A DNA stretch of 64,000 nt from Rhizophagus irregularis (taxonomy: Eukaryota > Glomeromycota > Glomeromycetes > Glomerales > Glomeraceae). Below the pieces are notes generated by a model that saw only the letters and a program-made list of their open reading frames with translations, was not told where the DNA came from and ran no database searches. Location: contig NC_089445.1 in the NCBI RefSeq assembly GCF_026210795.1, forward strand, positions 3,472,001 through 3,536,000, given 5' to 3'. A program made the translations under genes and the position numbers. This document shows, piece by piece, positions 1 through 39,243 of the stretch. How positions within the stretch are numbered: the first letter of the stretch is position 1; every line of letters begins with the position of its first letter.

Positions 1-2012
1 CTTTATTCTTAATATTTCGAGCACGATTAGCGTATTTTAGTGTATTTAAGGTTTCCATAAAATTAGAATCAGCTGGTGAAACGCAAGCTAACATGAGAGT
101 TTGACTATTACCACCAAGTGAATCTTGCAATAAACGTGTTAATTTTGAATCTCTGTAAGGGATATGTGTAACATTTCTTGATTCATCACCAAGCGCGCTA
201 ATTACATTACCAAGAGCCAGTAAACTCCCATTAATTGCAATTCCTTCTTTTTCTCTATCACCTATGGAGTTAGTTCTCTTTAACTATTAAATTTTTTTGT
301 AAAAAAAGATAAAACCACATAAATAATTCCGACTATATAAAGAATACAATAAAATATTAATAATTACCCTTTCTGAACCAGCTAAATCTACAAAATGAAA
401 TTTTGAAGTTACTTTTGATGTCAATGATTTTTGTGCTGGTGGATCATCATTTTCTTTATTTTCTTCTAAATTTTCTATTCCTGTTTGTTTAAGTATTACG
501 GAAAATATAGCGTGTGATCTTGAAGATACTATATTCATATCTGTTGAAGCGACAGTTCGACACAATGAACCCTTTTGTAATTGTCTAATAACAAAATGAA
601 ATTGCGTGTTAAAAAAATATCATACGTATATCTTAACGTCATATAAAAAAAAAGAGCATACCCTAAAAGTTCATCTGGGCCTGAAACTTGAACTTCTCTT
701 ACACCAGCCCAATGTATTTGACCGTTAGTATCTTCTCTTATCATTAAATCACTCCTTCCTTTTTTATTATTTTCTCTACTTTGTGGGTTTAATAAGTCTA
801 TAAGAACTTCATTATATAATTCTAAGAATGATACATAAACTTCAAATTGATAAGAAGGATTTTTTTCTTTTCGTTCGTGAAGGTCAGCAAATAATTTTCT
901 TATGGCACGTTGAATTATTCCTAAAAAAAATGACGTCGCGTCATAATCTAAGTTTGATGATCATTTTAAATGAATAATAGAACAATGGAATGAATGCATC
1001 ATATTTTACCCTGATGTTCGGGTAGAATATTTGAACCGTCTAAAGCTGTACCCATACTATATGTTTTACCACTGCCAGTTTGACTAAAAAAAAAATAAGG
1101 GTTGAAAATTTTTTAATAACAATTAATTTTTATAAATAATAAAATATACAAAATATTTACTTACCCATAAGCTAACATTGTGACATTATAACTAAAAATA
1201 TATATATATTAAAATAAATAATATAATATAATAAACAATAATAAATTATATATATATATATATTTGTTATTTATATTTGATTCTTCTGAATGACGTGATA
1301 TTTTTTATCCTGTACTCACCCTTTCACCAATTTTTCTACTAGCGGACTTGCGCATTCTTGAAATACTTCTTCTTGTTCAGTATCCGATGGGAATACATGA
1401 TCGAATGTAAAGGATTTATCGTTTCCAATGAGTATTTGTGGTGCGTCAGATATTGTTGTTAAACTTTTATTACAATTTTGTTGTGTTTCTTTTTTATTAA
1501 GTGGTCTCACTCTTAAAGCAACTCTATTTATTATAAGGAGAGGACAGAAAGGAAGATGAGTGAAAGGAGGAAAAAGATAAAGGTGGAAGAAAATAAATAA
1601 GAAAAAGACTTATTAAGATTAAAGAGTGCTAGGTATGTGGCACAAAATTATCTGTGACGTATTGCCGATCATTTTAGTACCCTAGCCATGGCGAAAAAAA
1701 AGTGACTGACACGTGACTTTTGGCCCGCATTACGGCGTTATGCACTAACACGTGAAAATAACCGGTGAAGAATAAGGGGTGACGAATAAGTTTTTACCTA
1801 CTCAAAAAAAACAAGTCCCTCAGATAAATATAAAAAGTGGAAACGCGGTGGGGCGTGACGGTTGTGATGAATAAAATGCAGTCACGTGTCAGTCACTTTT
1901 TTTTCGCCATGGCTAGGGTTGTAGATCATTTCATTGATCAATGAACAATATAATTGGCGTAAACTACACATGATTTTTTGATTTATACTTACCGCACGGA
2001 AGTTGAAGTCAT
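1..2012 (-). CDS. Kinesin-4 family motor, copy A (partial, 3' end outside window)
   Basis: Plus-end-type microtubule motor of the kinesin-4 (KIF4-like) family, first copy of the array. Exons on the minus strand, each bounded by GT..AG: 1993-2012 (MTSTSVR), 1320-1523, 1165-1191, 1010-1083, 662-920, 368-584, and 283 to the window edge. Visible motifs are VRPLNKKE, the P-loop GQTGSGKT (residues 84-91), SSRSH, and Switch II DLAGSER (261-267), followed by the end of the motor (YANRARNIK). The reading frame is open to the edge. Exon 6 is the short 217-nt type, as in copy B. Oddities are GIIQRAI for GIIPRAI and YNEVLIDLL for YNEDLIDLL. Intron 1 (1524-1992) contains a MITE. The start is chosen because the same 20-nt exon 1 is present in all four copies. 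The family call is strong; the coiled-coil and tail lie outside the window. Confidence 0.88.
1675..1923. mobile_element. hAT-like MITE in intron 1 of kinesin A
   Basis: A 249-bp element with perfect 39-bp terminal inverted repeats (1679-1717 and 1881-1919, both carrying the CTAGCCATGGCG core). The repeats extend imperfectly to TAGT and TGTA at the ends. It is flanked by the 8-bp direct repeat GATCATTT (1667-1674 and 1924-1931), the duplication length typical of hAT elements. It has no coding capacity. It sits wholly within the first intron, leaving both splice sites intact. Confidence 0.85.
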
Positions 2013-6344: not shown

Positions 6345-6522
6345 GTCCGGAGCGAATGCGAAGGACTATACTGTATACAGTATGTCTACGCACTATGAAA
6401 AATGATCTATCACGTGACCCGGAATTCCAAGGCGTTATGCTGCTAATTAGTAGAAAATCGCTACCATTCTTGATATATGTTAACATCTTTATTTATTATT
6501 ATTATGATACCTCGCTCCGGAC
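6345..6522. mobile_element. Short TIR element candidate
   Basis: About 178 bp bounded by an 11-bp inverted repeat, GTCCGGAGCGA at the left and TCGCTCCGGAC at the right. No target-site duplication is obvious. The interior has a short palindrome (ACTGTATACAGT). The ORF overlapping it (6356-6574) looks accidental. Confidence 0.4.
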
Positions 6523-8264: not shown

Positions 8265-8467
8265 AGTCAACCTGAATTAATTTTTTGTTACCATTGTTTC
8301 ATTTTACCTTCATTATATCATATTAAATGCTTTCTTTTTCATTTGAATCTATAGGAAAGAAGATGATATTTAGGATGTCCAAATTTTTGAAGTCCATTAG
8401 AAAAAAGGGTCTTTTTATCATTCAAGTCATTAAACAAATGATTTCATTTTCAATAAACTCTTAATGA

Positions 8468-11212: not shown

Positions 11213-14200
11213 TTAGTTCAGGCGGTATTCTTCTCGCCTTCCTTCTAATGCTGCTGTTTCTTCATAATTTTTGGTGACACTGATGACACTGGCGGCACTG
11301 GCGGCACTATCCCGTCTTTCAACATTATATTTGTTCTTTGTTGAGTCAAAACCAACATCTTCTGTCGGTGTTTCTGATCTCTTTTCAAGACGTAAAGTTT
11401 CTTCGAGTTCTATGTTTTTTTTCTCATATTCACTTGTTGTAAAACCCGTAGCTCTTCGCATGACCAATAATGATTTTCTTAAATCCATAATTGTCTTTTC
11501 CCGTTGTTCTAGAATCATTTGACGAGACCAATCTCCAGTTCGAAGTTCAATAATGTCCTTAAAGAGAGATTCCAATAATGTATAAGATTCGAATTCATCC
11601 AAATTTCGTAGTATGCGAAACGCAAAATTATATGAAGCTTCAGGTGTGGCATTTTCTGGTAAGATGAAGGAAAGTTTACGTTCAGCTTCACCAGTCTTGA
11701 TACTATTCTTTCGTGGTTTATCTCCAGTTTCTTTGTTATTTTCACAATCGTGATTCGATTCTTCTTGTTTACAATTTTCTTCTTGTTCCGCGGCAATACT
11801 AATATGCAAATAATGAATCTTAGAATTAATGTAAGCAATTTCTGAGGTGATCATCTCAATCATATCATCTAATGCTTGGGCATCTCCTCCTAATTCATTT
11901 CCAATTTCACTAGTGATTATTTTTTCACGTTCTTCAAGTAATTCATTCTTCTCCACTTGTAAATTGTTTCTTTTAACGATCCATTCATCCACCATTGCCA
12001 ATGGTTGACGACCACTAATATATTTATAGATAGCTTCATCAAGAAGTTTTTTCTTGTCATCATAGATAGGACCTAAATCATCAAAAGATCGTCTCAAATC
12101 ATTTCTGCCTTCACCATTACTAGATACTGATTGTCGTTTGTGATTACGGGAAGCCTTGGTGATTGACTTATGAGTAGTGGTTCGTTTGAGTAACGCCATA
12201 ACTGATTTAATTTTTCCATTTTTTTGTAAAATTTCCTTCCGTCTCTTTTCAAGCATGATTTTTTGCATTTCATTAATTCTTTCAAGACGTTTCTTTTGTT
12301 CTTGAGCAGCTTTTTCTTTACGACAAAGATTTCGACGAAGATTTTGAATTTCACGTTGATTACGTTCAGTCGTTTCACGAACACGCTCGGCTTCATCCTT
12401 CATGCGCTTCATCATTCGTATCTTTTCACCTCTTAGTTGTTCAATTTGAACACGCATATTCTTGAGAATTGTTTCATTTTGATTCTTTGATGTGGTATTT
12501 GATTGAGTAGCTTCATTATATTTTCGACGAAGTTCACCAATTTCTCGAATTAAACGTTTCATCTTATGTTCGTAACGGGCTTTAAGTTCGGTAAGGATCG
12601 AATTCTTATCACGAGTACTAGCATTTTTTTGAGCGCGTTTAAGAGCAGCTTTTCTTTCTTTTTGTAAAGTAATTAAAGTTTTTTTCATATCAGCCAATTT
12701 TTGTTCATATTGAGCTTTCATATAAGTATATTCTTGTTCAGCGCGTTCCAATTGTGAAACAAGTTGTTTTTTAACAGAGATATCAGCTTGAATTTGGTGT
12801 AACATACGGGTGAGAGCAATAACGTTTTGTACTTGTTGGGAGGAGCAACCAGTGCTATTTTGAGAAGATTCACTTGAACAAGGGGAAATTGGTCTTGAAT
12901 TTGAAGTACGACGAGTAAGTTGTGGTGGTTGTGGATAAGATCCTTGCCATTCTGACACTTCAGTGGTTTGAATTTCACTGAAAGATACAATGCTTGATCT
13001 TCTTTTTTCTTTTTGATGATTGGGAATCATTTGATCGATATAACTTTCACTCTTAGTTGATGAAGGTTGTTTTATTAATTGACTTAAAATAGGATCATCA
13101 TGTAAAGAACCTCCATTCTTTATTAACATGTAACTTTGTCTGAGTTGTTCCTTTGCCTTTTCAAGCCTATCTCTTGTCTTGCTACGTCTTTTCAATTTTC
13201 GAGTAAGTTTGAATGATTCACTATCAACATTTTCACCATCTTCTTCTTCAATGCTTTCTTCTTCTTCTTCATATGGTGTGAATAAGGATTTAACTTCTTC
13301 CAAACTTACATGTTCAAGTTGATGATGAGATGAGGAAGGACCAATAGATGAGATTTTAGTAGTAAAAGTTTCATCAGGAACTGGGAAGTAACCATCAGCT
13401 TTTGTCTTACTTTTCTTTGAAGAACGTTTCTTCTTCTTCTTATCGGAGAATTTGATATAACCTTTCTCTCTTCTTGGTGTTGTTCCAGCCAATGAAGATT
13501 TATGTGGATGTTGAGAAGCTTGAGCAGCTAAAAGTTCAGAAATTTGATTTTTAAGATTTTTAATTTCTGATTCATAACCTTGAACGATATTATGAGTTTT
13601 AATCCTATGTTCACGATCAGCATCTGAAAGATCTTGATCATTAAAACTAATTTCCATTAAAAGAGTGTTCTTTTCAGCTTTTACAGTGACAAGTTCTTGT
13701 TCAACACTTTGAAGTTTCATTTTTGTCATTCCTAATTCTCCTTTAAGACTCTTAATTTCTTCTTCATATTTACGACTTGTTTCTTCATTACAACCACCAG
13801 CTCGTAAAATTTGAATTTCCATCTTTAATCTACTTATTTGACTACGTAGTTGATTTATTTCAACAGAATTACCATCATAACTTTCATTAACACTAACTTT
13901 ATTCTTAATATTACGAGCACGATTAGCATATTTTAGTGTATTTAAGGTTTCCATAAAATTAGAATCAGATGGTGAAACACAAGCCAACATGAGAGTTTGA
14001 CTGTTACCACCAAGTGAATCTTGTAATAAACGTGTCAATTTTGAATCTCTATAAGGAATATGAGTGACCTTTCTTGATTCATCACCAAGTGCACAAATTA
14101 CATTACCAAGAGCCAGTAAACTCCCATTAATTGCAATTCCTTCTTTTGCTCTATCACCTATGGAGTTAGTTCTCTTTAACTATTCAAGTAAAATATTTTA

Positions 14201-15821
14201 TAAAAAAGATAAAAACAGATTATTAATTTCGATTATATAAAAAATAATCATAAAAGATGAATAATTACCCTTTCTGAACCAGCCAAATCTACAAAATGAA
14301 ATTTTGATGTTACTTTTGGTGTCAATGATTTTTGTGCTGGTGGATCATCATTTTCTTTATTTTCTTCTAAACTTTCTATTCCTGTTTGTTTAAGTATTAC
14401 GGAAAATATAGCGTGTGACCTTGAAGATACCATATTCATGTCTGTCGAAGCGACAGTTCGATATAGTGAACCCTTTTGTAATTGTCTAATAATAAAATAA
14501 AATTGTGTATTTAAATAAATATATATATATACATATATTTGACGTCGTATGAGTCGTATGAAAATTTTTCTACGTATTTCGCACATTAACAACAGTAGAA
14601 ACATACCCTAAGAGTTCATCTGGGTTTGAAACTTGAACTTCTTTTACACCAGATAAATAAATTTGACCGTTCGCATCTTCTCTTATCATTAAATCATTCT
14701 TTCCTTTTTTATTATTTTCTCTACTTTGTGGGTTTAATAAGTCTATAAGATCTTCATTATATAATTCTAAGAATGATACATAAACTTCAAATTCATAAAA
14801 AGGATTTTGTTCTTTTCGTTCGTGAAGGTCAGCAAATAATTTTCTTATGGCACGTGGAATGATTCCTAAAAAAAATGACGTCATAAATTGATTATCATTA
14901 TAGAAGATTAGATGAGATATTAAATGATGCAATAGAGAATTTGTATAACAAACAATGGAACAATGGGATGAACGTATATTTTACCTTGAATATTTGAACC
15001 ATCCACAGCTGTACCCATACTATATGTTTTACCACTACCAGTTTGACTAAAAAATAGGGGGTTGATAATAAAAATCATTTTGTTTAATAAAAAAAATTGT
15101 TTCAGGATTTTAATAAATAATAAATAATAAACAAATAATAAACAAATAATAAATAAATAATAATTATGAAAAACTCAGATTGTTCATTCCCTTTGAGAAT
15201 AACTATAAAAATAAAAAAATAGAAAAATAATGATTGTTATTTACTTACCCATATGCTAAAATAGTGACATTATAACTAAAAATAAAATAAATAAATAATT
15301 TTAATACATAAATTTTAATAAAAATTAACAATGGTCGATAAAAAAGGTGATGTCTTCCCAAAACAATTTTGATGTCTGTGGTTATTCGTAACGTGACACA
15401 TGTTTTTTTTCTCGCACTCACCCTTCCACCATTTTATCTATTAGCGGACTTGCGCATTCTTGAAATACTTCTTCTTGTTCAGTATCCGAAGGAAATACAT
15501 AGTCGAATGTAAAGGATTTATCGTTTCCAATGAGTATTTGTGGTGCGTCAGGTATTACTATTAGACATTCACTACAGTTTTGTAGTGTTTCTTTGTTACT
15601 GAGTGGTCTTACTCTCAAAGCAACTCTTATTATAAGGAGAGGATGGAAATAAAAATGAGTTAGGAGATGAAACGAAAAATGACAAGGATAAAAGATGGAA
15701 GAAAATAAATAAGAATGTGAAAGAAATAGGAATAAAAATTGGAAATATTTAATTTTTTATAAAATTAAATTTTTTTTGTTCAATGATTTATAGTTACTTA
15801 CCGTACGGAAGTTGAAGTCAT
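11213..15821 (-). CDS. Kinesin-4 family motor, copy B (1251 aa, intact)
   Basis: Microtubule motor of the kinesin-4 family. Exons are 15802-15821, 15422-15625, 15249-15275, 14985-15046, 14607-14865, 14269-14485 and 11213-14179, summing to 3756 nt with no internal stop. The motor spans about residues 8-345, with P-loop [18 protein letters not shown] and Switch II DLAGSER (257-263). It is followed by a long series of coiled-coil segments (for example [20 protein letters not shown]), acidic and Ser-rich linkers, and a C-terminal segment with [20 protein letters not shown]. Compared with A, C and D, exon 4 is 12 nt shorter, which removes the PEH-containing loop. The tail is about 300 residues shorter than in D. 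No Cys-rich KIF4 tail domain is seen. A TE-like insertion lies about 20 bp upstream of the start. Confidence 0.92.
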
Positions 15822-17145: not shown

Positions 17146-18049
17146 TTATTAACATACTCATGTGATACCATGAAAACGAACAATATTCTCAAGAGAACTT
17201 ATTTGGCGCTGAAGTTTTAGTTGTATAATAAATAGAATTTTAATTAAAACTATAATAATGTATTGTAAAGATAGAAAACATGTAATAAAAATAATATAAT
17301 TACTTCATTGATAATTATTTAATCGCGACATCGTTAAAATTAGAAATGCTAATTATTTGTGAAAATCTTTCTCTCCAGTATGCGCAATAGACCTTTCCGA
17401 AACATCAAACATCCGAACCAACTTCTTTAATATTATAAAAATGGATTTATAATATTTAAAGTAATAGCTTCTCCAATAAATTTAACCCAATCATTTGTAT
17501 TATTAGTTATAATTTCTTAAGCGAGTTTATTATTTGGAGACATATCAAAAATAATGGAACTTTTGGCAATTAAAATATTCCAATCGAAAAATATAATTTT
17601 CTTCAATAAGTAAAAGAAATTTGTTGGTGTAATAATTACTTTTTAATAGTATTAAAATTATTTGTTTCATATTCTCTGTAAAGGGAAGTTATTAAAATTA
17701 TTTTTCTACAATATATAGTACAACTATTTGGTGTTCCCATCACATTTACATTGGTCGAACATGTCGACGGATCTGTTTATATTTATTAATTAGATACTAT
17801 ATTAAATTTCGTTATTTATACATTAAAAGTTGCAAACTTTAGTACGTTTTGTAAAATTGTAAACGTGCTTCAATACGTAAATTACATTAGCATAGCATAT
17901 GCCTCTTTTATAATTTAAATATATTTGTATTCATTATCATAAGAATAATTACATGATCTAATAAACGATTTTTTTATTAATTTTAAGAACAGTATCATTG
18001 TATTTACGATCTTATAATTTTATAACTCTTTTGAAATTTTTCTAACTTA

Positions 18050-19872
18050 TTTTGTGCATTTTTGTTTCTTTGTTTAGCTGATTTTTCATACTAGTAAATT
18101 TCTTTATTTATATCTTTTGTAATCCTTTTCCATATTGATACATTAAAGCAAGATTATATTGTGCTATTTCATCTCTAAGTTTGCTGCGATTTGATATAAT
18201 TTGCTTATCAATTTATTTCCAATACCTTTATCATAAATGAAGCTATTCCCTTTGAATATTTTCCTTCAGCTGATTGCTTATATAATTCAAAAGCTTTATT
18301 ACAATCTTTTATAACACCAATTCCATTTTTATAACAATTACCAAGATTATGCATTGCTATCATGTTCCCATTATTTGCAGCTTTTTCATACCCAATAAAA
18401 TGCTTTTTTAAAATCTTTTCTAATTCCTATTCCTTTTTCAAAATAATAACCAATTTCTAATTATCCCACTGCATCATTTTTATTAGCTACTTTTTTATAA
18501 TATTCAAAAGACAATTTTTCATTTTCAAAGTTCCACATCCATAAAAATAACAATCACCAACAAAAAGTATATGATTTTTTTTTGATGCATTAATAAAAAA
18601 TTAAATGCTTTCTTATTATTTTGATTTGTTACAATTCCATAATAATTAAAATATTCGAGTGAATAAATAGAATTTGAACTAATTTGTTCAATAACCAATT
18701 GTAAATTTCTTGTAAACTTGCATTATAATTATTAAAATGCTTTTCTAATTCTGAAATATTATAATTTCCCTCATTTTTTAATTATAAGTATAATCATTTA
18801 TTTCTCCAACTATCATATTAAAATCTTTTTCAGTTGAAAGATTTTCTTGTTTACAATCCTATAAAAATGAAATGTGTTAAATTTGTATTCATGTGTAAAA
18901 AACGTCCAAAAAAGAACCATTTTGTCCGATTTATGTCTTATTACAAAAAAACAAAAATTAAACAAAATGATGCTTTTTTAGACATTTATTACACATGAGC
19001 ATAAATATTAAACAAATTTAACTCATTTCGTTTTATAGGGGCAAAAGAATCAATTTTTTTTGTATCCATTTTCATTTTGTCAAAATTTTGAATAATTCAC
19101 CTGGTGATTTTGAGTTATTAGCACTTAAAGAAGCCGCTTCGTTTGTTTGTCATCTCCTGTTTCGATAATTAGTGCATTTAGCCAAGTAACTACATCAGGA
19201 AGTTTTTAGGTGGGTCGGTCCATGTAATTCCACGTGGGTTTGCTCAGAAATACGTGGAATTCCACACATTCTCAATATCCTACATGGATCCACACCAAAT
19301 TTCGTGGACTTATGCCGAAAATACCACGTGTTTCGTCACAGGGTATTCGGAAAATACTGGAACTATTTTAGATTTCCACATATTTCCACACCATGTGGAT
19401 TTTAAACGGAAAAAAATTCCTGATGTACTTGATATATGGTTAGGCGATTATCTGGCTCCCATTCCAACATTCTAAAAATAAATGTAATTTTAAGATTAAT
19501 TAAAATAATATTTTATATTAAAATTTCAAATTTAAATAATACTATTCACTGGTATAAATTTTAGCATATTTTTCAGGTGTACCTTTCTCTATGACCTTGT
19601 AAAATTTCCAATGCTAAACCAACATCATATTGTTCACCTTCAACATAAAAAGGAGGTTGTCCACTAGATATTTCCCATAATAATACTCCAATACCGTAAA
19701 TATCACTTTTTTCATTTAATGAGTAAATTTGTGCTGTTTGGTCAGAACTACTACTTCGTCTGTTGAAAATCTTTGGATCAACATAAGGAACCACTCCAAA
19801 TAATTGGGATTGCAAATTTGATGACATCCCGATTCTTTTTGATAATCCAAAATCCGCCAATTTGATAGTACT
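18050..19872 (-). pseudogene. TKL kinase-Sel1 pseudogene (unit 1)
   Basis: Sister of the gene at 28874-31340. The kinase C-lobe is readable at 19573-19860 ([14 protein letters not shown], then [20 protein letters not shown]). The catalytic-loop exon start is damaged: HSGNI is followed by a stop after a small deletion. An 11-nt deletion near 19585 removes the TVVP stretch and shifts the frame. The Sel1 part (18050-18870) has many stops and frameshifts but retains [20 protein letters not shown]. Exons 1-3 are missing upstream. A foreign insertion of about 225 bp lies in exon 5 at about 19200-19425. Confidence 0.75.
19200..19425. mobile_element. CCACGTGG-rich insertion in the kinase-Sel1 pseudogene
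   Basis: About 225 bp absent from the corresponding exon of the unit-2 copy. It is rich in CACGTGG, GTGGAATTCCAC and CCACATATTTCCACACCATGTGG palindromic words. No clear terminal repeats or duplication could be fixed. The ORF at 19254-19475 lies mainly in it and looks fortuitous. Confidence 0.4.
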
Positions 19873-20687
19873 TAAATATTACCAGAATGCTATTAAAAAA
19901 ATGTATATACCTACTATATGTTTAATATTCAAAATTTCCAATACTGTTAAATGTTAATACTGCTTCAATTTAATTATTTAACGATTTTAAAATATTATCA
20001 TTATTAATTTTTTTTCTTATAAAATGATATTTTGCAATTTTAGAGTATGTCATTCCCATTACAAGAATAATTAGTTACCATCAAATGTTTATAAAACACG
20101 AAATAATAATAACTTTTCATCCATTATTCTAAAATAAACTCCTAAAAATTGATGTGACTTATAGCATATATTCTTTTTCTTTGGTCAAAAATCATACAAA
20201 TCTTCTTCGTGAATACACGAAATTACCCATCCAGATCTATAAGATGATCCATGACATTATACAAATGTTTCTTTTTAATTTTCCTAAATAAAGGGACTTT
20301 TAATTTCAGGGATCTTCTCTTACACAATTTGTATTATTTAATATTCTTTCTATATTAAATTAAACAATTTTTTTTAAAGAGGACATTCGTTAATTAAGCT
20401 CAATAGAAAAAATTGTTAAATATTAAATAAATAATATAAAAAAATCTTGATTTGCCTACCGGCCTCACTCATTTCAAAGTCAAATCAAAAATGCAAATCA
20501 AATAGTCGATTAGTAATCAGAAATAGGTTACTTATTTGATTATTATATTTTGCAATCCGTCAGAATTTCTGGATCCGGATCATACCCAAATTAAAAAGAA
20601 TGCTACCTGCCTCTAAAATGGGTATTACCCACTTATACTCATTTATCTTTTTGTTAAATATGACCCGAGTATATCTGGGTCGCAACA
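19873..20687. other. Junction region between duplication units
   Basis: No gene recognised. Kinase exons 1-3, expected here from unit 2, are absent. Confidence 0.4.
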
Positions 20688-21249: not shown

Positions 21250-24200
21250 TCAGGCGGTATTCTTCTCGCTTCCTTCTAATGTTGCTAATATTTCTTCATA
21301 ATTTTTGGTGACACCGATGACACTGGCGGCACTGGCGACACTACCACGTCTTTCAACATTATATTTGTTCTTTGTTGAATCAAAACCATCATCTTTTGTT
21401 GGTGTTTCTGATCTCTCTTCAAGACGTAAAGCTTCTTCGAGTTCTCCGTTTTTCTTCTCGTATTCACTTGTTGTAAAAGCCGTAGCTCTTTGCATGGCCA
21501 ATAATGAATTTCTTAAATCAATAATTGTCTTTTCTTGTTGTTCTAGAATCATTTGACGAGACCAATCTCCAGTTCGAAGTTCAATAATATCCTTAAAGAA
21601 GGATTCCAATATTGCATAAGATTCGAATTGATCCAAATTTTGTAGTATGCGAACCGCGACGTTATATGAAGCTTCAGTGTGGAATTCTCTGGTAAGATGA
21701 AGGAAAATTTACGTTCAGCTTCACCAGTCTTGATACTATTCTTTTGTGGTTTATCTCTAGCTTCTTTGTTATTTTCACAATCATGATTCGATTCTTCTTG
21801 TTTACAATTTTCTTCTTGTTCCGCGGCAATACTAATATGCAAAGAATGAATCTTAGAATTAATGTAAGCAATTTCTGAACTGGTCACCTCAATCATGTCA
21901 TCTAATGCTTGGACAGCTTGGGCATCTCCTCCCAATTCATTTCCAATTTCACTAGGAATTATTTTTTCACGTTCTTCAAGTAATTCATTCTTCTCCACTT
22001 GTAAATTGTTTCTTTTAACGATCCATTCATCCACCATTGCTAATGTTTGACGTCCACTAATATATTTATAGATTGCCTCATCAAGAAGTTTTTTCTTATC
22101 ATAACCACTTGCAAATACTTCATCATAGATAGGACTTAAATCATCAGAGGATCGTCTCGTTTCCTTTCCGTCTTCAGTATTATTAGATATTGATTGTCGT
22201 TTGTGATTACGGATAGCCTTTATGATTGATTTTGGAGTAGTGATTCGTTTGAGTAATGACATAACTGATTTAAGTTTACTATTTGTTTGTAAAAATTCTT
22301 TCCGTCTCTTTTCAAGCATGATCTTTTGCCTTTCACTAGTTCTTTCAAAACGTTTCTTTTGTACTCGAGCAGATTTTTCTTTACGACGAAGGTTTTGAAT
22401 TTCACGTTTATTACGTTCAGTCATTTCACGAGCACGTTCAGCTTCATCTTTCATACGTTTCATCGCTCGCATCTTTTCACTTTTTAGTTGTTCAATTTGA
22501 GCACGCATAATCTTGAGCATTGTTTCATTTTGATTCTTTGATGTGGTATTAGATTGAGTAGCTTCATTATATTTTCGACGAAGTTCACCAATTTCTTGAA
22601 TTAAACGTTTCATTTTGTGTTCAAAACGGGCTTTGAGTTCGGCAAGGATTGGATTCTTATCACGAGTGCTAACACCAGTATTAGCATTTTGAGCACGTTT
22701 AACAGCAACATTTCTTTCTTGCTGTAAAATAATTAAAGCTTCTTGCATATCAGCCAATTTCTGTTCATATTGAGCTCTCATATAAGTATATTCTTGCTCA
22801 GCGCGTTCCAATTGTGAAACAAGTTGTTCTTTAACAGCGATATCAGCTTGAATTTGATGCAACATACGGGTGAGAGCAATAACGTTTTGTTGTTGTTGGG
22901 AGGAGCAACCGCTATCTTGAGAAGAAACTTGAGAAGATTTACTTGAACAAGGAGAAATTGGTCGATCGGAGAAACAAACAGAACGACTTGAATTTGAAGT
23001 ACGACGAGTAGGTTGTGGTGCATTAGATTCTTGCCATTCGGGTACTTCAACGGTTTGAAGTTCACTGAAGGATACACTGCTTGATCTTCTTTTTTCTTTT
23101 TGATGATTAGAAATCATTTGATCAATATAACTTTCACTCTTAGTTGATGAAGGTTGTTTTATTAATTGACTTAAAATAGGATCATCATGTAAAGAACCTC
23201 CATTCTTTATTACCATGTAACTTTGTCTGAGTTGTTCCTTGGCCTTTTCGAGCTTATCTCTGGTCTTACTACGTCTTCTTAATTTTCGAGTAAATTTGAT
23301 CGATTCACCATCCAAATTTTCATCATCATCCTCAATGTTTTCTTCATCTTCTTCATATTGTGTGAATAAGGATTTAGCTTCTTCCAAACTTTGATTATTT
23401 ACGACATGTTCAAGTTGATGATAAGATGAGGAAGGACCAATAGGTGAGATTTTAGTAGTAGAAGTTTCATCAGAAACCGGGAAGTGACCATCAGCTCTTG
23501 TCTTACTTTTCATTGAAGTACGTTTCTTCTTCTTTTTACCTTTCTTCTCACTATACTCTTTATTATTATTATTAAGATTATAAATATCTTCATCAGATGA
23601 ATAAATATGAGGATTGGAGAATTTGATATGACCTTTCTTTCTTCCTGGTGTTGTTCCAGCAAAAGAAGATTTACGTGGATGTTGAGAAGATTGAGCAGCT
23701 AAAAGTTCAGAAATTTGATTTTTAAGATCTTGAATTTCTGATTCATAACCTTGAACGATATTATGAGTTTTAATCCTATGTTCACGATCAGCATCTGAAA
23801 GATCTTGATCATTAAAACTAATTTCCATTAAAAGAGTGTTCTTTTCAGCTTTTGTAGTGTCAAGTTCTTGTTCAACATTTTTAAGTTTCCATTTTGTCAT
23901 TCCTAATTCATTTTGAAGACTCTTAATATCTTCTTCATGTTTACGACTTGTTTCTTCATTACAACCACCAGCTCGTAAAGTTTGAATTTCCATCTTTAAT
24001 CTACTTATTTGACCACGTAATTGATTTATTTCAACAGAATTACCATCATAACTTTCATTAACACTAACTTTATTCTTAATATTACGAGCACGATTAGCAT
24101 ATTTTAGCGTATTTAAGGTTTCCATAAAATTAGAATCAGCTGGTGAAACACAAGCCAACATAAGAGTTTGGCTATTACCACCAAGTGAATCTTGTAACAA

Positions 24201-25818
24201 ACGTGTTAATTTTGAATCTCTATAAGGAATATGAGTGAACTTTCTTGATTCATCACCAAGAGCACTAATTACATTACCAAGGGCTAGTAAACCACCATTA
24301 ATTGCTATTCCTTCTTTTGCTCTATCACCTACGGCGTTAGTTCTCTTTAACTATCCAAGTAAAATATTTTATAAAAAAGATAAAAACAGATTATTAATTT
24401 CGATTACATAAAAAAATAATTATAAAAGATGAATAATTACCCCTTCTGAACCAGCCAAATCTACAAAATGAAATTTTGAAGCTACTTTTGATGTCAATGT
24501 TTTTTGTCTACTCTTTCTTTTTGAACCGGCTAAAGATTCTGCTGGTGAAACATCATTTTCTTTGTTTTCTTCTAAATTTTCTATTCTTGTTTGTTTCAGT
24601 ATTACGGAAAATATAGCGTGTGATCTTGAAGATACCATATTCATATCTGTCGAAGCGACAGTTCTACGTAGTGAACCCTTTTGTAATTGTCTAATAATAA
24701 AATAAAATTGCGTGTATTAAAAAATTATACATATATTTTAACAACGTACAAAAAAAAGGGCATACTCCAAGAGTTCGTCTAGGTCTGAAACTTGAACTTC
24801 TTTTACACCAGCCCAATATATTTGACCGTTTGCATCTTCTCTTATCATTAAATCACATTTTCCTTTTTTATTATTTTCTCTACTTTGTGGGTATAATAAG
24901 TCTTTAAAATCTTCATTATATAATTCTAAGAATGATACATAAACTTCAAATTCATAAGAAGGATTTTTTTCTTTTCGTTCGTGAAGGTCAGCAAATAATT
25001 TTCTTATGGCACGTGGAATGATTCCTAAAAAAAAATGACGTCATAAATTGATTATATTTTAGATGATCATATTAAATGATGCAAGAGAGAATTTGTATAA
25101 CAAACAATGGAACAATGGGATGAAAGAATATTTTACCTTGATGTTCGAGTGGAATATTTGAACCGTCTAAAGTTGTACCCATAGTATATGTTTTACCACT
25201 GCCAGTTTGACTAAAAAGTAGGTAAAAATAATTTTGTTTAATAAAAAAAATTATAAATAATAAATATATAATAAATATGAAAACTCTTTACTTACCCATA
25301 TGCTAAAATAGTGACATTATAGCTAATAAATAATTTAATGCATAAAATAAACAATGGTCGATAAAAAAGGTGATGTTTTCCAAAACAATTTGATGACTGT
25401 GGTTATTCTCCCGTCTCACCCTTCCACCAGTTTATCTATTAGTGGACTTGCGCAACCATGAAATACATCTTCTTGTTCAATATCCGAAGGAAATACATAA
25501 TCGAATGTAAAGGATTTATCGGTTCCAATGAGTATTTGTGGTGTTTCAGGTATTATTGTTAAACATTCACTACAATTTTGTAGTATTTCTTTGTTATTGA
25601 ATGGTCTTACTCTCAAAGCAACTCTATTTATTATAAGCAGAGGATGGAAATAAAAATAAGTTAGGAGATGAAACGAAAAATGCCAAGGATAAAAGGTGGA
25701 AGAAAATAAATAAGAATGTTAAAGAAATAGGAATAAAAAAGGAATTATTTAATTTTTTATAAAATTAAACTTTTTTTGGTTCAATTATTTATAGTTACCG
25801 TACGGAAGTTGAAGTCAT
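21250..25818 (-). CDS. Kinesin-4 family motor, copy C (frameshifted near the C-terminus)
   Basis: Exons are 25799-25818, 25420-25623, 25296-25322, 25137-25210, 24766-25024, 24441-24690 and a last exon from 24350. The motor reads through with P-loop GQTGSGKT and [10 protein letters not shown]. Switch II reads DLAGSEG instead of DLAGSER, replacing a highly conserved arginine. Exon 6 is the long 250-nt form with an 11-residue insertion (contains [11 protein letters not shown]), as in D. In the last exon a one-base deletion at about 21677 (ACACTGAAGC versus ACACCTGAAGC in B) sends the frame to a stop at 21549, giving about 1211 aa. The original C-terminal frame remains open at 21250-21636 and ends SEKNTA. 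It may be a truncated functional protein or an incipient pseudogene. Confidence 0.85.
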
Positions 25819-25835: not shown

Positions 25836-26090
25836 GCATACCGTCAGACCTCTATGTACCGATATCCTATGTACCAATAATTTCCTGTACCGATAAATTT
25901 TCCATGTCCCGTTTTACAATTAGCAAGAAAACCTATATTATATATACAGTAGTAACATGTACCATACTTTAGGTTACACTGATATTAATTCGGGCCAACA
26001 CTATAAATTTGGCCAGAGTTAACATAAAGGTTCTTCTGGCAAGAATTGGATTTTGGCCCGCATTATGATTCACTGATGCCTTTAAAAAAG
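25836..26090. mobile_element. TE-derived insertion directly upstream of kinesin C
   Basis: Equivalent of the insertion upstream of B. It opens with CGTCAGACCTCTATGTACCG and closes with CCCGCATTATGATTCACTGATG. Beyond it, homology to the kinesin D upstream region resumes (AATACAAGAGAA, GGGAAGAACAT). Confidence 0.5.
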
Positions 26091-28873: not shown

Positions 28874-31340
28874 TTATAAATCATGAAGTGTTTCTAACTT
28901 ATTTTGTGCATTTTGATTTCCTTGTCTAGCTAATTGTTCATACCAATAAATTGCTTTATTTATATCTTTTGTAATTCCTTTTCCATATTCATACATTAAA
29001 GCAAGATTATATTGTGCCATTTCATTTCCTAGGTTTGCTGTTTTTTGATATAACTCAAATGCTTTTTGCTTATCAATTTTAGTTCCAATACCTTCATCAT
29101 AACAATATCCTAATGAAGTTATTCCCTTTGAATATCTTCTTTCAGCTGATTGCTTAAAGAATTTAAAAGCTTTATTATAATCTATTTTAACGCCAATTCC
29201 ATTTTTATAACAATTACCAAGATTATGTATTGCTATGATGTTCCCATTATTTGCAGCTTTTTCATACCAATAAAGAGCCTTCTTTAAATCTTTTTCAATT
29301 CCTATTCCTTTTTCATAACTATAACCAATTTCTAATTGTCCCACTGCATAATTTTTATTAGCCACTTCTTCATAATATTTAAAAGATAATTTTTTATTTT
29401 TTATAGCCCCATATCCATAAAAATAACAATCACCAACAAAAAGTTGTGCTAATACATGATTTTTTTTTGATGCATTGATAAACAAATCAAATGCTTTCTC
29501 ATTATTTTTACTTGTTACAATTCCATGAAAATTAAAATATCCAAGTAAACAAATAGAATCTGAACTAACTTGATTATTCAATAACCAATTGTAAATTTCC
29601 TGTGAACTAGCCTTACAATTATTAAAATGTTCAATAACTTGCAACTTTTCTAATTCGGGATTATCATTTCCATCATTTTTTAATTTATAAATAAAATCAT
29701 TTATTTCACCAACAATCATATTAAAGTCTTTTTCAGTTGGAAGATCTTCTTGTTTACTTGAGATTGCAGTTGGAAGATCTACTTGTTTACTTGAGATTGC
29801 AGTTGGAAGATCTTCTTGTTTACTTGAGATTGCAGTTGGAAGGTCTACTTGTTTACTTGAGATTGCAATAGAATTAATTTCTTCTGTATTCATTTCCATT
29901 TTGTCAAAGTTTTGAATAAGTTGAGATAATTCTCCTTGTGATTGTAAATTATTAGTACTTAAAGAAGTCGCCTCATTAGGTTCTTGTTTAACTGATATCT
30001 GATGGTCTTCTGAAGTCACCTCATTAGGTTCTTGTTTAACTGATAGTATCTGATGAGTCGCCCCATTGAGTTCTTGTTTAACTGATATTATATTTGATTT
30101 GATCATTAGTGCATTTAGCCAATCAACTACTTTATATATGATTGGACGATTATCAGGTTCTCCATCCCAACATTCTGAGAATAAATGTAATTAAAGATAA
30201 ATTTAATTTATATTTAGATATTTTTTCAGTTAAAAAATTTACTTACTAGTATAAATTTTACATATTCTTCAGGAGTATCGGGAACAACTGTTTCTCGAAA
30301 ACCTTGTGAAATATCATAAATTAAACCAACATCATATAACCCATCAACAGAAAAGGGAGGTTGCCCGCTAGATATTTCCCATAATAATACTCCAACACTG
30401 TAAACATCGCTTTTTTCATTTAATGAATAAACTTGTGTTTGGTTATTATTATTTCTTCTCCTGATAAAGCTTTTTGGGTCAACATAAGGAATCACCCCAA
30501 ATAATTTGGACTGAAAATTTGATGACATCCCGATTCTCTTTGATAATCCAAAATCTGCCAATTTGATCACGTTTTGGTGAACTAATATATTATCAGAGTG
30601 CTAATAAAAAATGTATATATGAAATAAATAATGTGAATATGATATTATTAACAATCAATTTGAAAGAATAATGATTAAGTTACCAGGTCACGGTGGATAA
30701 TCTTTTCTTTATGTAAGCATGATACAGCGCAAGCTAACTGGTATGCCATATTATATTTGTCGTCCCAAGTAAGGTTAGTGAAGTTTTTTTTTAAGTAACT
30801 TCGCAGACTACCACTATTAGCATATTCCATTACTAACATATAATTATTATTAATATGATAATCTAAAGAAAAAAGGAAACGTTCATTAGAATCATTTTTA
30901 TGAATAAAATTCATAATATATATTAATTAATTAGGTATCATTATAATACCTGCTGATTCGAATTTTGTTATTCCATGGCAACGAATAATATTATCATGAT
31001 AATCGACTTCTCGTTGAATTTTTAACTATATAAATTTAAATTTTAATAAATAAATATTACAATGATAAAAAGAGATGTCTTTATTCAAAATTACCTCACA
31101 AACAATTTCTTTTACGGTGACATTGTCAAGACTAAAAAAAGATTTTAACGCAAAACATTTTCCTAAATTTTTCCAATTTGCGCTGTACACTTTTCCGAAA
31201 CCTCCGGTACCAATTTCTTGAAAGTTGCTAAATTCTTTATATTCATAATATTTTATATGTTCTTTATCAACAGCTTCTTCAATCCAATTAATCCATTCAT
31301 TTTTATTCTCCGTATCATGCATTTTGATATTATCAGACAT
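28874..31340 (-). CDS. TKL kinase-Sel1 repeat protein (unit 2, one-base frameshift between the parts)
   Basis: Probable signalling kinase fused to Sel1 (TPR-like) scaffolding repeats. Exons are 31095-31340, 30950-31025, 30684-30862, 30247-30600 and 28874-30174. The kinase shows glycine loop GTGGFG, ALK lysine, catalytic HRDLHSDN, DFG, and VDPK where most kinases have APE. Exon 5 opens with the kinase end ([11 protein letters not shown]). A linker follows with three (I/L)SVKQE motifs and four copies of an 11-residue AISSKQxDLPT unit, then about six Sel1 repeats (for example [20 protein letters not shown]). Exon 4 lacks one base near 30255 relative to the copy at 45 kb (GTAAAATTT versus GTTAAAATTT), so normal splicing puts the Sel1 part out of frame. 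It may be an early pseudogene, a kinase-only protein or a sequencing error. Confidence 0.85.
29743..29870 (-). repeat. 33-bp coding minisatellite in the kinase-Sel1 linker
   Basis: About four tandem copies of a 33-bp unit (GTTGGAAGATCTtCTTGTTT + ACTTGAGATTGCA on the plus strand), alternating GATCTTC and GATCTAC or GGTCTAC variants. They are translated as [11 protein letters not shown] or [11 protein letters not shown]. The unit is a multiple of three, so copy-number changes would keep the frame. Confidence 0.8.
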
Positions 31341-32896
31341 CTTGAATAATAATAATTTGACAGAATAATTTAAAAACGAGAGTTTGAACGATTAAGAGTT
31401 GTAAAATATTTTTTTGTGTAAATGGTCTATTTTAAGTATCTTATGCAATTTATTTTCCGATAGTCGCACAGCGTCACAGATTTGTATCATCATAAATAAA
31501 ATTAATCAAAGTAAATGACTAAAAAAAAAATTACAATTATATTCGTTAAATTTGGTTAAAACGTAAAATAATTAGTAATTGGTTAGTTACAAACTTACAT
31601 TTAAAATAAAAATTGGACTATCCGCAAAGACCATTGGCTAGCTAATGATAAAGATGCACCAATTGAAAAAACTTTAATTATGAATACCAATTGAATTTAT
31701 AGTCTATAAAAAAATATTTTTTATATAAACATAATCCTGGTTTTTATAACTTCTACTTTTAAATTTCATTACCAAAGCAAGTTACTAGCTTGGCTAGCGC
31801 CCAGCCAACCATACATATATGAAATATGCAGTACCAAAAGCGATATACTCCGGCCAGCATTACGGAATTAAGAAATTAACTATGTGACATACTGACAGAT
31901 ATAAAGACAGGATTTTAGTCTTAACGTACGCATCATGTGTACGATCCTCATTGAAATTACAATGTAATACTAGAATTTTGTTTTATTAAATTAATGGATG
32001 AACTGATTTGATCAAGACTATAATCAATTGCTACATTGGTTCAACACACTCAGTAATATTTAAGGAAGAAAAAATTCCATTATCTGTAATACAACAAAAA
32101 AGAAAACTATTCTAATGGGCTATAAAAAGGAAATAATGTTATTAAAATTTAGCTGATAACGACCTCATTGTATAAGACGTACATACGACTACAATGCTAG
32201 CTAAAAAATGCACCAAATAGGATTTGAGTTAGAATGTCATTTTAGATTATCTTCACACCTAGACACGCCTAAATCTACATAATCACATACTATTAACTGT
32301 ACCTAATAATCTAAGCGCAAGAAATATGAAATATGTAAAAATAATGCTAGTTAGATTTGTAATTCCCGCTCAAAAGTTAAATGCGATTGCCTTTATAAGA
32401 AATAAATAATGTTTAATTTTTTTTCTTTTTCTTTTGTCTTTATAATTAGTAAATAGTTATGTTTATATATATATATATATTAATATGTATAGAAATAAAT
32501 CATATCGAACTTATAAAATTTATTTAATTTGTTTTATTATAATACGCGTCTTTTTTTTATTTAGTTTTCACGGAATTTGGTCCTAAATAAGTTGTGTTGC
32601 AGCCTTGTAGGTATATTTATAGCGGATTTTTTATATTTGTTCAATATTAATTGATGGTTTAATTAATATTATTTTAAAAAAAAAATTTCTTTGAGAAAAC
32701 GCAAAAATTTTCTCAGATAAAGTTATATGTATAACTTTAAAAATCAAGACGTGTACTGCATCCAAAGGATGCGTAAGATAATACTGTATCTTACACGTTA
32801 AGAATGCTCTCATTTTAAATTCCAATTTTTTAATTAATGTTATACATATATAATAAATTATATTATGTATAATATAACCGAACTTTTAGTCTCAGT
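31341..32896. other. Intergenic; boundary repeat copy 3 at 32706-32810
   Basis: No gene supported. Near 31925 and 32706-32810 there are GTACG/AAGAATGCTCTC words related to the duplication-unit repeat at 10882 and 20688 (AAAATTTTCTCAGATAAAG). CTCCGGCCAGCATTACGGAATT near 31850 belongs to a GGCCAGnATTA word family also seen near 7720 and 47950. The ORF at 32631-32825 has no recognisable content. Confidence 0.45.
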
Positions 32897-33316: not shown

Positions 33317-34059
33317 AAATCAGTTATTTGGTTGGTAAATTGATATGCTGACAATTTAAATCTTTAACGTACAATATGTTTGTAGTAAAATGGTAATGTT
33401 ATAATAAGGTTATTATGTATGCAGTACAATCAATACAATCAATATTATCCGTACTTTTGTCATTAAAACATCCCGTACGTTTTTGTTTCTTTTTTATTAT
33501 ATTATTGTTATTATTTCACTTACTAAAAAAATTAATGGATAACAGAATATCGCATCGCGTTAATTGTTATCGATCAATAAAAAAAGGAAAAAAAAAAACT
33601 GAATTGGTCAAAAAAAAAAAAAAAAAAAAAGAACTAGTAATTGGTCAAAAAGGAAAAAAAATTGGTCTGAAAAAAAATCAAATCATTGAAAATTTTTTTG
33701 AAAAAACAAATTAGTCCTTATAACCTCAAAAAAACCTATATTACATGGATTTTTTCCCTGAAAAAATACCTCATCTATTTTCTAAATATTTTTTTTCGGT
33801 AGTTGAAGAGTAATAAGAAAGAAGTAAGGAAAAAAAGGAGAAAAGGGATAAAAAAAAAAATAATAATAATAAAATAAATAATAAGTACACATATATCTAC
33901 AATAACAATTTTTTTACAGTATGAACAAAGAAAGGAAAAAGTTTCTAAATTTTCAATGTCTCAAGAGATTTATTAACCAATAAGAATTAGTCTATAAAGA
34001 TATTAAATTTCAGGTGACCTTCTCGCCTTACACTGGTGACACTGGCGACATTGGCGACA
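33317..34059. other. Low-complexity intergenic, 3' flank of kinesin D
   Basis: Poly-A-rich sequence at 33570-33700 creates a lysine-rich plus-strand ORF (33415-33714) that I do not regard as a gene. From about 33900 the sequence aligns with the 3' flanks of B and C (GAAAAAGTTTCTAAATTTT). It also contains bases homologous to the end of the B and C coding tails (about 34010-34060). Confidence 0.5.
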
Positions 34060-37000
34060 CTACCATGTCTCTGAGCTTGATTGTGTTTGACTCTTTGATA
34101 AACGATCAAAAATATTATCTCCTGTCGGTGTTTCTGATCTTGTATGTGTATGGAGCGACATTAATGCACGTTTTTCACGTTCACTGGTAGTACTTGTTAC
34201 GCTTACTGCATCACTACTATCGGGTGAACTATGTCCATATGGACTTTGTCGCATATGGTATGCTGCTATTATGTCTTTGGAACCTCGTAGTGCTATACTG
34301 CTTTGTGATCTTCGCCTATCACCACTGCTTAAATATCCGTTAACACGTGGACAATCACCACCTGATTCTAAGTAGAAACCCGCGCTTGTTAAACTACTTT
34401 GTCGACTATGTGCAAGAATTGTTGACCCATCGTGAAGCGAACTTGAAAATTGAACACTAGATTTACTTCGTTCTAAATGTTGATCACTGGATCTGGAACG
34501 TTCTAAAGGTTGACCAATGGACCTTGTGCGTTCTAAATGTAAATTTCCAAGCTCTATTGAAGGAGAAATATTCTCATCTTTTGATTGACTATTAGAGGGT
34601 CTTACATTATTGTTGATAATGCTTCTAATGCTAAAGTCATTATAACCAGAGTCTTTTCTCTTTGAATTTGTTGGAACTTCTGGCGTTGATGATTGTATTT
34701 CATTAACTTGTTCGGATACCTTTACACGTGGTTGAAGATTTAACCAACTCAAAGGCATTGGTGATCTGGAGAAACTTGCTCTATTATTATTACCAGTATT
34801 CATTGGACTTGCAGATAATAGTGAGGAAAAGAAGTAAGCCGCATCATCGTTAACGAAGTATGAATTGTGTCTTGATGATGATCCTATTTGACTAGGAGTT
34901 CCAAAAGTTCCTGCCGAAACTGCTGCTTCAACTCCCACATAAGCTTGATCTAATCTATGTTTAAGTAAGAAAATAGCTTTGGAAGTACTATTTTCAATAT
35001 CGTCCATCTGTAATTCTCTCTTTTCTGGACTTAATGATCTTCCACCAAGACGTAAAGCTTCTTCGAGTTCTCTGTTTTTCTTTTCGTATCCACTTGTTGT
35101 AAGAACTGCAGCTCTTCGCATGGCCAACAATGTTTTTCTTAAATCCGTAATTGTCTTTTCTTGTTGTTCTAGAGTCATTTGACGAGACCAATCTCCAATT
35201 CGAAGTTCAACAATATCCTTAAAGAAGGATTCCAATATTGTATAAGATTCGAATTGATCCAAATTTTGTAGAATGCGAACAACAACGTCATATAAGACGT
35301 CTGGTGTGGCATTCTCTGGCAAGATAAAGGAAAATTTCTTTTCAGCTTTACCAGTCTTGATACAACTCTCTTCTTGTTCCGCAGCAATACTTGATTGTAA
35401 AGAACGAATCTTGGCATTGATGTAAGCAATTTCTGAGGTGATCATCTCAATCTTATCATCTAATGCTTGAGTATCTCCTCCCAACTCATTTTCAATTTCA
35501 TTAGTAATTATTTTTTTATGTTCTTCAAGTAATTCATTCTTCTCCTCTTGTAAATTGTTTCTTTTAACGATCAATTCATCTATTTGACGACCACTAATAT
35601 ATTTATAGATTGCTTCATCAAGAAAGTTTCTCTTATCATAATCACTGGCAAATATTTCATAGCGGATAGGACTTAAATCATCGGAGGATCTTCTCGATTC
35701 CTTCCCATTACTAGATGTTGATTGATTTCTTTCGTGATTATGGGTAGTAGTTCGTTTGAGTAACGCCGTAACTGATTTAAGTTTTCCATTTTTTTGTAAA
35801 ATTTCCTTTTGTCTCTTTTCAAGCATGATTTTTTGCATTTCGCTAGTTTTTTCAAGACGTTTCATTCGTTCTTGAGCAGCTTTTTCTTTACGACGGAGAT
35901 TTTGAATTTCACGTTGATTACGTTCAGTCGTTTCACGAACACGCTCGGCTTCATCCTTCATGCGCTTCATCATTCCTCTTAGTTGTTCAATTTGAGCACG
36001 CATACTCTTGAGAATTGTTTCATTTTGATTCCTTGATGTGGCATTTGATTGAGTAGCTTCATTATATTTTCGACGAAGTTCACCAATTTCTTGAATTAAA
36101 CGTTTCATCTCGTGTTCATAACGGGCTTTAAGTTCGGTAGGAATTGAATTCTTATCACGAGTACTAACGCCAGTACTAGCATTTTGAGCGCGTTTAACAG
36201 CGGCGTTTCTTTCTTGTTGTAAGGTAATTAAAGCTTCTTGCATATCAGCCAATCTTTGTTCATATTGAGCTCTCATATAAGTATATTCTTGATCAGTTTG
36301 TTCCAATTGTGAAACAAGTTGTTCTTTAACAGCGATATCAGCTTGAATTTGATGTAACATACGGGTGAGAGCAATAACGTTTTGTTCTTGTTGGGAGGAG
36401 CAACCAGTGCTATTTTGAGAAGATTTACTTAAACAAGGAGAAATTGGTCGATCGAAGAAACAAACAGAACGACTTGAATTTGAAGTACGACGAGTAGGTT
36501 GTGGTGCATTAGATTCTTGCCATTCGGGTACTTCAATTGTTTGAATTTCACTGAAGGATACACTGCTTGATCTTCTTTTTTCCTTTGAATTATTGGACAT
36601 CATTTGATCAATATAACTTTCACTCTTGGTTGATGAAGGTTGTTTTATTAATTGACTTAAAATAGGATCATCATGTAAAGAACCTCCATTCTTTATTATC
36701 ATGTAACTTTGTCTGAGTTGTTCCTTGGCCTTTTCGAGCTTATCTCTGGTCTTACTACGTCTTCTTAATTTTCGAGTAAATTTGAACGATTCACCATCCA
36801 AATTTTCATCATCATCCTCAATGTTTTCTTCATCTTCTTTATATTGTGAGAATAAGGTTTTAGCTTCCAAATTTTGTTCATTTATAACATGTTCAAGTTG
36901 ATGATGAGATGATGAAGGACCAACAGGTGAGATTTTAGTAGAAGTCTCATCACCTTTCTTCTCATCACTCTCTTTATTACTATCACTATCATTATTTTGA

Positions 37001-39243
37001 TGATAAATATCTTCATCAGATGAAAAGATATGAGGATCAGATAATTTGATACGACCTTTCTCTCTTCCCGGTGTTGTTCCAGCAAAGGAAGATTTATGTG
37101 GATGATGATGAGTAGCTTGAGCAGTTAAAAGTTCGGAAATTTGATCTCTGAGATTTTTAATTTCTGATTCATAACCTTGAACGATACGATGAGTCTTAAT
37201 CCTATGTTCACGATCAGCATCTGAAAGATCTTGATCATTAAAACTAATTTCCATTAAAAGAGTGTTCTTTTCAGCATTTGCAGAGATAAGCTCTTGTTCA
37301 ACACTTTGAAGTTTCATTTTTGTCATTTCTAATTCTCTTTTTAGACTCTTAATTTCTTCTTCATATTTACGACTTGTTTCTTCATTACAACCACCAGCTC
37401 GTAAAGTTTGAATTTCCATCTTTAATCTGCTTATTTGACCACGTAGTTGATTTATTTCAACAGAGTTACCACCATAACTTTCATTAATACTAACTTTGTT
37501 CTTAATATTACGAGCACGATTAGCGTATTTTAGTGTATTTAAGGTTTCCATAAAATTAGAATCAGCTGGTGAGACGCAAGCCAACATGAGAGTTTGACTA
37601 TTACCACCAAGTGAATCTTGTAATAAACGCGTTAATTTTGAATCTCTGTAAGGGATATGTGCGACGTTTCTTGATTCATCACCAAGCACGCTAATTACAT
37701 TACCAAGGGCCAGTAAACCCCCATTAATTGCAATTCTTTCTTTTGCTCTATCACCTATGTCGTTAGTTCTCTTTAACTATTCAAGTAAAAAGATTTTATA
37801 AATAAAGATAAAACAGATTATTAATTTCGATTACATAAATTATAAAAGATGAAAAATTACCCTTTCCGAACCAGCCAAATCTACAAAATGAAATTTTGAA
37901 GTTACTTTTGATGACAATAATTTTTGTTTATTTTTTCCTTTTGAAGCAGCCGAAGATTCTGCTGGTGGAACAACATTTTCTTTATTTTCTTCTAAACTTT
38001 CTATTCTTGTTTGTTTCAGTATTACGGAAAATATAGCGTGTGATCTTGAAGATACCATATTCATATCTGTTGAAGCGACAGTTCTACATAGTGAACCCTT
38101 TTGTAATTGTCTAATAATAAAATAAAAATTGTATATTTACAATATATATATACGTATATTTGACGTCGTATGAGTTGTATGAAAAATTTTCTACGTATTT
38201 CGCACATCAACAACAGTAGAAACATACCCTAAGAGTTCATCGGGGTCTGAAACTTTAACTTCTTTTACACCAGCCCAATGTATTTGACCATTGGTATCTT
38301 CTCTTATTATTAAATCATTCTTTCCTTTTTTATTATTTTCTCTACTTTGTGGGTTTAATAAGTCTATAAGATCTTCATTATATAATTCTAAGAATGATAT
38401 ATAAACCTCAAATTGATAAGAAGGATTTTTTTCTTTTCGTTCGTGAAGGTCAGCAAATAATTTTCTTATGGCACGTGGAATAATTCCTTAAGAAAATGAC
38501 GTCATAATTTAAGTTTGATGATCATTTAGATAATGCAATAAACCATGCATATTTTATTTTACCTTGATGTTCGGGCGGAATATTTGAATCGTCTAAAGCT
38601 GTACCCATACTATATGTTTTGCCACTACCAGTTTGACTAGAAAAATTTTTTTTGTCAAATTTTTATAAATAATAAATATGCAGACTAATTAAAAATAATG
38701 AATGATTATATTTACTTACCCGTATGCTAAAAGTGTGGCATTATAACTAAAAATATAAATGATAATAAAATAAATAATATAACATAATGTGTAATGTAAT
38801 TAATGTAATGTAATAATAAAATTTAACAATAGTCGATAAAAAAAAGTGATATCAACTACCTCGGAATATTAACACCGATGGGTTTTTTTCCTGTACTCAC
38901 CCTTCCACCAGTTTATCTATTAGCGGACTTGCGCATTCTTGAAATACTTCTTCTTGTTCAGTATTCGATGGAAATACATAATCGAATGTAAAGGATCTAT
39001 CGGTTCCAATGAGTATTTGTGGTGCGTCAGGTATTGTTGTTAAGCATTCACTACAATTTTGTAGTGTTTCTTTGTTATTGAGAGGTCTTACTCTCAGAGC
39101 AACTCTATTGAGAGGATGGAATGAAAAACGCCAAGGATGAAAAAGGTAGAAGAAATAAATAAGAAGGAATAAAGAATAAAAAGGTAAAGGAATTACTTGA
39201 TTTTTTGATTTATGGTTACTTACCGTACGGAGGTTGAAGTCAT
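34060..39243 (-). CDS. Kinesin-4 family motor, copy D (1516 aa, longest, intact)
   Basis: Microtubule motor of the kinesin-4 family. Exons are 39224-39243, 38901-39104, 38720-38746, 38563-38636, 38228-38486, 37861-38110 and 34060-37776, totalling 4551 nt, in frame. Motor motifs are VRPLNNKE, P-loop GQTGSGKT (84-91), SSRSH (215-219), and DLAGSER (272-278). A long coiled coil and acidic region follow ([20 protein letters not shown]). D alone has a Ser-rich tail of about 300 residues, with [10 protein letters not shown] and a tandem [30 protein letters not shown] repeat that could be phosphorylated. The last residues ([10 protein letters not shown]) arise from a frame change: the DNA beyond 34060 encodes [16 protein letters not shown] in another frame, homologous to the B and C termini. 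D is probably the best model of the ancestral gene. Confidence 0.92.

Follow-up and report, generated by a model that had tools for sequence, protein, structure and literature searches.

Judged from its genome sequence, the root-symbiotic fungus Rhizophagus irregularis has an unusually large family of kinesin-4 genes, in which the motor has been kept and nearly all duplicates have an altered tail. Four members of this family, copies A to D, lie in the window analysed here, a stretch of 64,000 nucleotides (C17:3472001–3536000 of a 146,748,485-base assembly in 32 contigs), where BLAST of the window against itself delineated four blocks of related sequence, all on the minus strand. Exon models gave each copy seven exons, with lengths of 20, 204, 27, 62–74, 259 and 217–250 nt followed by a long last exon; every intron of all four copies has GT-AG borders, and the 27-nt microexon is present in all four. 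These models bore out an earlier note on this DNA, which had described four same-strand copies with common exon lengths and this microexon, and had proposed a tandem array formed by local amplification: the homologous copies are adjacent and head-to-tail on a single contig, C17, and their aligned DNA is ~80–87% identical over kilobases, far above chance.

Copy A (1–2012, minus strand; exon models and genome sequence) is cut by the window start, with exons at 2012–1993, 1523–1320, 1191–1165, 1083–1010, 920–662, 584–368 and 283–1, the last continuing to the left of the window. Its state, which could not be told from the window, was read from the genome sequence: the open frame of the last exon extends over 1094 codons to a point ~3.0 kb left of the window, and related sequence outside this frame continues to C17:3468752. 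Intron 1 of this copy measures 469 nt, against 119–176 nt in the other array copies, and by eye positions 1600–1960 within it look like an insertion that has long terminal inverted repeats. Copy B (11213–15821, minus strand) has seven exons, a last exon of 988 codons and a deletion in the tail; its frame is open, as the earlier note had stated, but we count the gene as shortened, because ~350 codons are absent relative to the family member on contig C13 (the C13 copy). Copy C (21250–25818, minus strand), also with seven exons, carries the same tail deletion, and the frameshift proposed for it proved to be a 1-nt deletion near codon 887 of the last exon (near 21.7k in the window), which spares the motor and most of the stalk; the frame of the start codon ends at 21549 and the shifted frame continues to 21250. 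Copy D (34060–39243, minus strand) has seven exons and 1516 aa and is open as had been claimed, but its own extreme C-terminus is altered.

All four array motors gave a full-length match to the Pfam Kinesin model (352–365 bits, positions 1–327), and the motor domain is complete in each, with GQTGSGKT, SSRSH and DLAGSE, which we take to be the P-loop, switch I and switch II motifs of the kinesin motor. Among solved structures, 7x4n was closest to copy D (E 1.3e-107), followed by KIF4 and KIF7, and together with the Pfam match this agrees with the kinesin-4 identity given in the earlier note, an assignment made from the PDB matches and not from a full kinesin tree. The 7x4n structure appears in a paper whose abstract presents KLP-12 as the orthologue, in worms, of KIF21A and KIF21B (PMC9451533), and the motors of A–D are 52–55% identical to that of C. 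elegans KLP-12. The stalk is of KIF21 type, with the KIF21A_4th model (PF25764) exceeding its cut-off in B, C, D and the C13 copy, and PF23203 slightly under its cut-off in D and the C13 copy. No WD40 domain was matched in the last exon of D or of the C13 copy, and we therefore refer to the array motor, which by these matches is a kinesin-4 nearest to KLP-12/KIF21, as KIF21-like rather than KIF21. The Rhizophagus genes share with KIF21 and KLP-12 the motor domain throughout and the KIF21A-like stalk model; they differ in the missing WD40 domain (D and the C13 copy) and in having many copies per genome. Plus-end-directed motility and inhibition of microtubule dynamics are described for KLP-12 (PMC9451533), and because of this homology the products of the array clade would most likely be kinesin-4 motors that move towards microtubule plus ends and slow their dynamics. 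Searches of viral and prokaryote contig collections gave no relatives of the last exon of D, in keeping with a fungal gene; no Rfam family reached its gathering score in the window, and no tRNA was detected there.

The whole-genome search that the earlier note had suggested revealed dispersed copies besides the array. With the last exon of D as query (37 of 55 candidates scored, which makes the counts lower bounds), the KIF21-like clade contained at least seven genes, namely A–D on C17, two genes on C4 (C4a at 3.82 Mb and C4b at 4.03 Mb) and the C13 copy (C13:2.63 Mb), and the 47 matches listed included no fifth array copy. Four relics, fragmentary and interrupted by stops, were located at C4:3.80, C15:0.79, C9:3.60 and C10:3.28 Mb. 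A second kinesin-4 clade comprised six more distant loci (61–67% identity over ~130 residues), which grouped as a single clade with support of 100; the search also gave weaker matches. For the one of these six that was compared the closest solved structures were likewise 7x4n, KIF4 and KIF7. In the dispersed genes of this second clade (L017–L022), GQTSSGKT replaces GQTGSGKT. Across the genome, 83 Pfam Kinesin matches resolved into at least 22 loci over cut-off and one weak locus, with 13 of the 22 being kinesin-4 genes by our own grouping (7 + 6), in line with the high copy number for a fungus that had been suspected; the other nine and the weak locus may include further kinesin-4 genes. For comparison, the portion of PMC8950801 consulted names one kinesin-4 gene per species for Schizophyllum (Schcokin4), A. 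nidulans (An6875) and U. maydis, and its section 4 gives kinesin totals of 9–11 in A. nidulans, N. crassa and U. maydis, and of five to eleven across the fungi listed; earlier work has mentioned fungal homologues of KIF21A (PMC9145010). Rhizophagus has in common with these species a kinesin-4 motor in a filamentous fungus, and is set apart by 13 such genes among 22 loci, a difference drawn from literature counts and not from sequences. The root of the gene tree was weakly supported, and this weak outgroup placement favoured neither array-to-dispersed nor dispersed-to-array descent. C4a and C4b (L011 and L012) form a young pair, with a motor dS of 0.021 below the dN of 0.040 and more replacement than silent changes, and C4b contains a long asparagine run.

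The earlier note had raised the possibility that the copies are assembly artefacts, as might arise from duplicated haplotypes or misjoined contigs. This is highly improbable, given that the array copies are 13–20% diverged, all on C17, and differ in introns and flanks, and that the matching published DAOM197198 assembly reports uniform long-read coverage, with average Nanopore values of 77–85x on every nuclear contig, these being contig averages and not array-specific (PMC10234402).

Within the array, motor dS ranged from 0.148 to 0.217 with dN/dS of 0.25–0.37, the in-frame part of the last exon had dN/dS of 0.41–0.56, and many intron pairs were only 56–76% identical. Using a simple site-count expectation and treating changes as independent, we found an excess of silent changes among the copy-specific motor changes of all four array copies when these were compared with each other (A P 0.0022, B P 0.0035, C P 0.02, D P 0.0035). 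When all seven clade genes were compared, the motor excess was significant in A (P 0.029), B (P 0.0053), D (P 0.001) and the C13 copy (P 0.0013), and no significant constraint was seen in C (P 0.19), C4a (P 0.62) or C4b (0 silent and 16 replacement changes); in the corresponding stalk test it was significant in A (P 0.0018), D (P 0.0041) and the C13 copy (P 0.0042), with no significant constraint in B (P 0.21), C (P 0.14), C4a or C4b. Indels in the last exon, scored in six copies each against the C13 copy and entering more than once where common to several copies, were multiples of three in 62/62 cases before codon 886 and in 30/48 cases after it. Because of the motor dS, the dN/dS values, the silent excess and the in-frame indels, we consider the array to be neither very recent nor simply decaying, and C, C4a and C4b may be relaxed. 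The proposal of a recent, ongoing amplification at different stages of decay thus holds in part: the amplification is real, "recent" is unsupported given the motor dS and the intron divergence, and decay is not the main reading given the dN/dS of the motors and the uniformly in-frame indels, although C, C4a and C4b do show no significant constraint. Less probably, only the C13 copy would be needed and the array copies would be slowly dying, losing weakly constrained tails first, with the remaining constraint a remnant. The lack of significant constraint in C, C4a and C4b and the four relics elsewhere in the genome fit such a birth-and-death process, but the silent excess in the own motor changes of A, B and D and the complete lack of frame-breaking indels before codon 886 in six copies do not, nor does the thoroughly broken state of the kinase-Sel1 neighbour between B and C (see below), next to kinesin genes that are not broken in this way.

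The C-terminus is altered in six of the seven clade genes, the exception being the C13 copy, which has the longest last exon (1386 codons). We take its tail, probably the ancestral one, as complete on the grounds that its middle part recurs in A, D, C4a and C4b and its end in B and C. The first tail changes, as aligned, are distinct in each copy save for the deletion common to B and C: in A the first frame-breaking change lies near C13 codon 1251, B and C lack the ~350 codons mentioned above, in D ~51 terminal residues of the C13 product are replaced by a few, the C4a frame stops after 1207 codons, and C4b has a frame shift near codon 1222. The segment of the D last exon that is missing from B and C (34140–35035, minus strand) has GT and AG at its edges by eye, and we considered whether it was an intron removed in those two copies; this was rejected because the C13 copy, C4a, C4b and A retain it wholly or partly as open frame. 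Tail dN/dS was 0.58–0.68 in the seven comparisons involving A or D. These values, and the alteration of all six tails outside C13, are what slowly dying copies would show, but the lower tail dN/dS of 0.36–0.44 among C4a, C4b and C13 argues against it. The tail-altered copies might instead be selected regulators, which for instance form dimers with the full-length product of C13 and modify what it does or carries. Repeated C-terminal change with retention of motor and coiled coil would suit this idea, as would the repeat inserted on the 5′ side of B and C, but tail loss also fits relaxed constraint, and we regard selection for such a role as quite unlikely.

The array copies have probably also exchanged sequence. 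Between B and C, introns 1, 4 and 6 are 95–97% identical and introns 2, 3 and 5 only 72–87%; in intron 5, B and D are 95% identical versus 72% for B and C, and a short exon 6 is common to B and A. A dispersed repeat (25836–26036) lies directly 5′ of the start codon of C and is partly retained at B; it has at least 51 matches in the genome (from 40 scored of 116 candidates), and did not appear when the 600 bases upstream of A, D, C4a, C4b and C13 were aligned, with up to three best matches shown per pair. Shared flank, deletion and 5′ repeat had suggested B and C as sister genes, a relationship rejected for the coding sequence with the topologies tried: motor plus stalk coding sequence rejected a B-C clade with p-AU 0.012, four topologies being given. 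It is this conflict between a shared deletion and 5′ repeat on one side and the coding sequence on the other that makes exchange probable. The longest runs of shared variants in a three-copy test were matched in 0/2000 permutations for B-D and for C-D, with P 0.026 for B-C; in a four-copy test all six pairs had P ≤0.026, and because all six did so, these run tests may be inflated by rate variation along the gene. Non-allelic gene conversion would be the simplest reading of the mosaic.

The kinesin genes alternate in part with genes coding for kinase-Sel1 proteins. One such gene lies left of A (L009:1115–3590), a broken relic with stops, frameshifts and inserted elements lies between B and C (17822–19909, minus strand), another gene lies between C and D (28874–31391, minus strand) and an inverted one beyond D (44938–47336, plus strand); no kinase-Sel1 gene or relic was seen between A and B. 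Palindromic inserted elements occupy 18858–19475 inside the relic, of which 18858–19039 pairs with itself in the BLAST of the window and a second was read by eye. Elsewhere in the window, an astacin-type (M12A) peptidase fragment was noted at 59249–59587 on the minus strand, and open frames at 44432–44662 and 56337–56609 had no Pfam match and gave the impression, at most, of transposon or nuclease remnants. With the gene beyond D as query (103 of 2920 candidates scored, ranked by similarity), 78 of the 103 kinase-Sel1 places taken lie on C4, also home to C4a, C4b and one relic, and a very large kinase-Sel1 cluster is apparent at ~2.2–5.5 Mb of that contig. The kinesin relics on C15 and C10 also adjoin kinase-Sel1 genes, such that, of the four kinesin loci off C4 and C17, two have one of the 22 remaining places less than 5 kb away; the chance of two such loci within 8 kb is ~4e-5 under uniform placement, in a test made after the pattern had been seen. 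The C13 copy and the C9 relic had no kinase-Sel1 gene on their own contigs among the places listed. From the closeness at the array, C4, C15 and C10 we infer that kinesin and kinase-Sel1 genes were copied together in part, by ectopic exchange. Tandem arrays and expansion of the Sel1 and kinase families are known in R. irregularis (PMC8647823), and the present array resembles those expanded-family arrays (kinase, Sel1, BTB, Kelch) in belonging to the same species and containing kinase-Sel1 genes; it differs in that the text consulted names signalling and RNAi families, with a cytoskeletal motor not among them.

Taken together, we favour with moderate confidence an explanation in which segmental duplication and unequal exchange multiplied a KIF21-like kinesin-4 gene, partly along with an adjacent kinase-Sel1 gene that belongs to a highly amplified family, giving the four-gene array on C17, the further genes on C4 and several relics. 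The members would later have exchanged sequence by non-allelic gene conversion, most copies would have retained motor and most of the stalk as a working protein, and all six copies apart from C13 would have lost the C-terminal tail or seen it change. Where expressed, the products would presumably be active motors with altered tails, and in B and C the 5′ region would be altered as well.

No prior report of a kinesin-4 array in R. irregularis was found among the matches listed in titles and abstract openings of open-licence PMC papers. The coenocytic hyphae of this lineage depend on long-range transport, and a count of at least 22 kinesin loci, including 13 of kinesin-4, would make this species an exception to the description of fungi as having few kinesins. 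The array suggests a route for the amplification of a conserved motor gene next to one of the expanded gene families of the fungus, and its copies are natural tail variants for study. As a tentative and rather doubtful suggestion, kinesin-4 may be the commonest kinesin class of R. irregularis, and the tail-altered duplicates, arisen repeatedly from one KIF21-like gene, may be kept to tune microtubule dynamics beside the full-length C13 motor in its long, many-nucleate hyphae.
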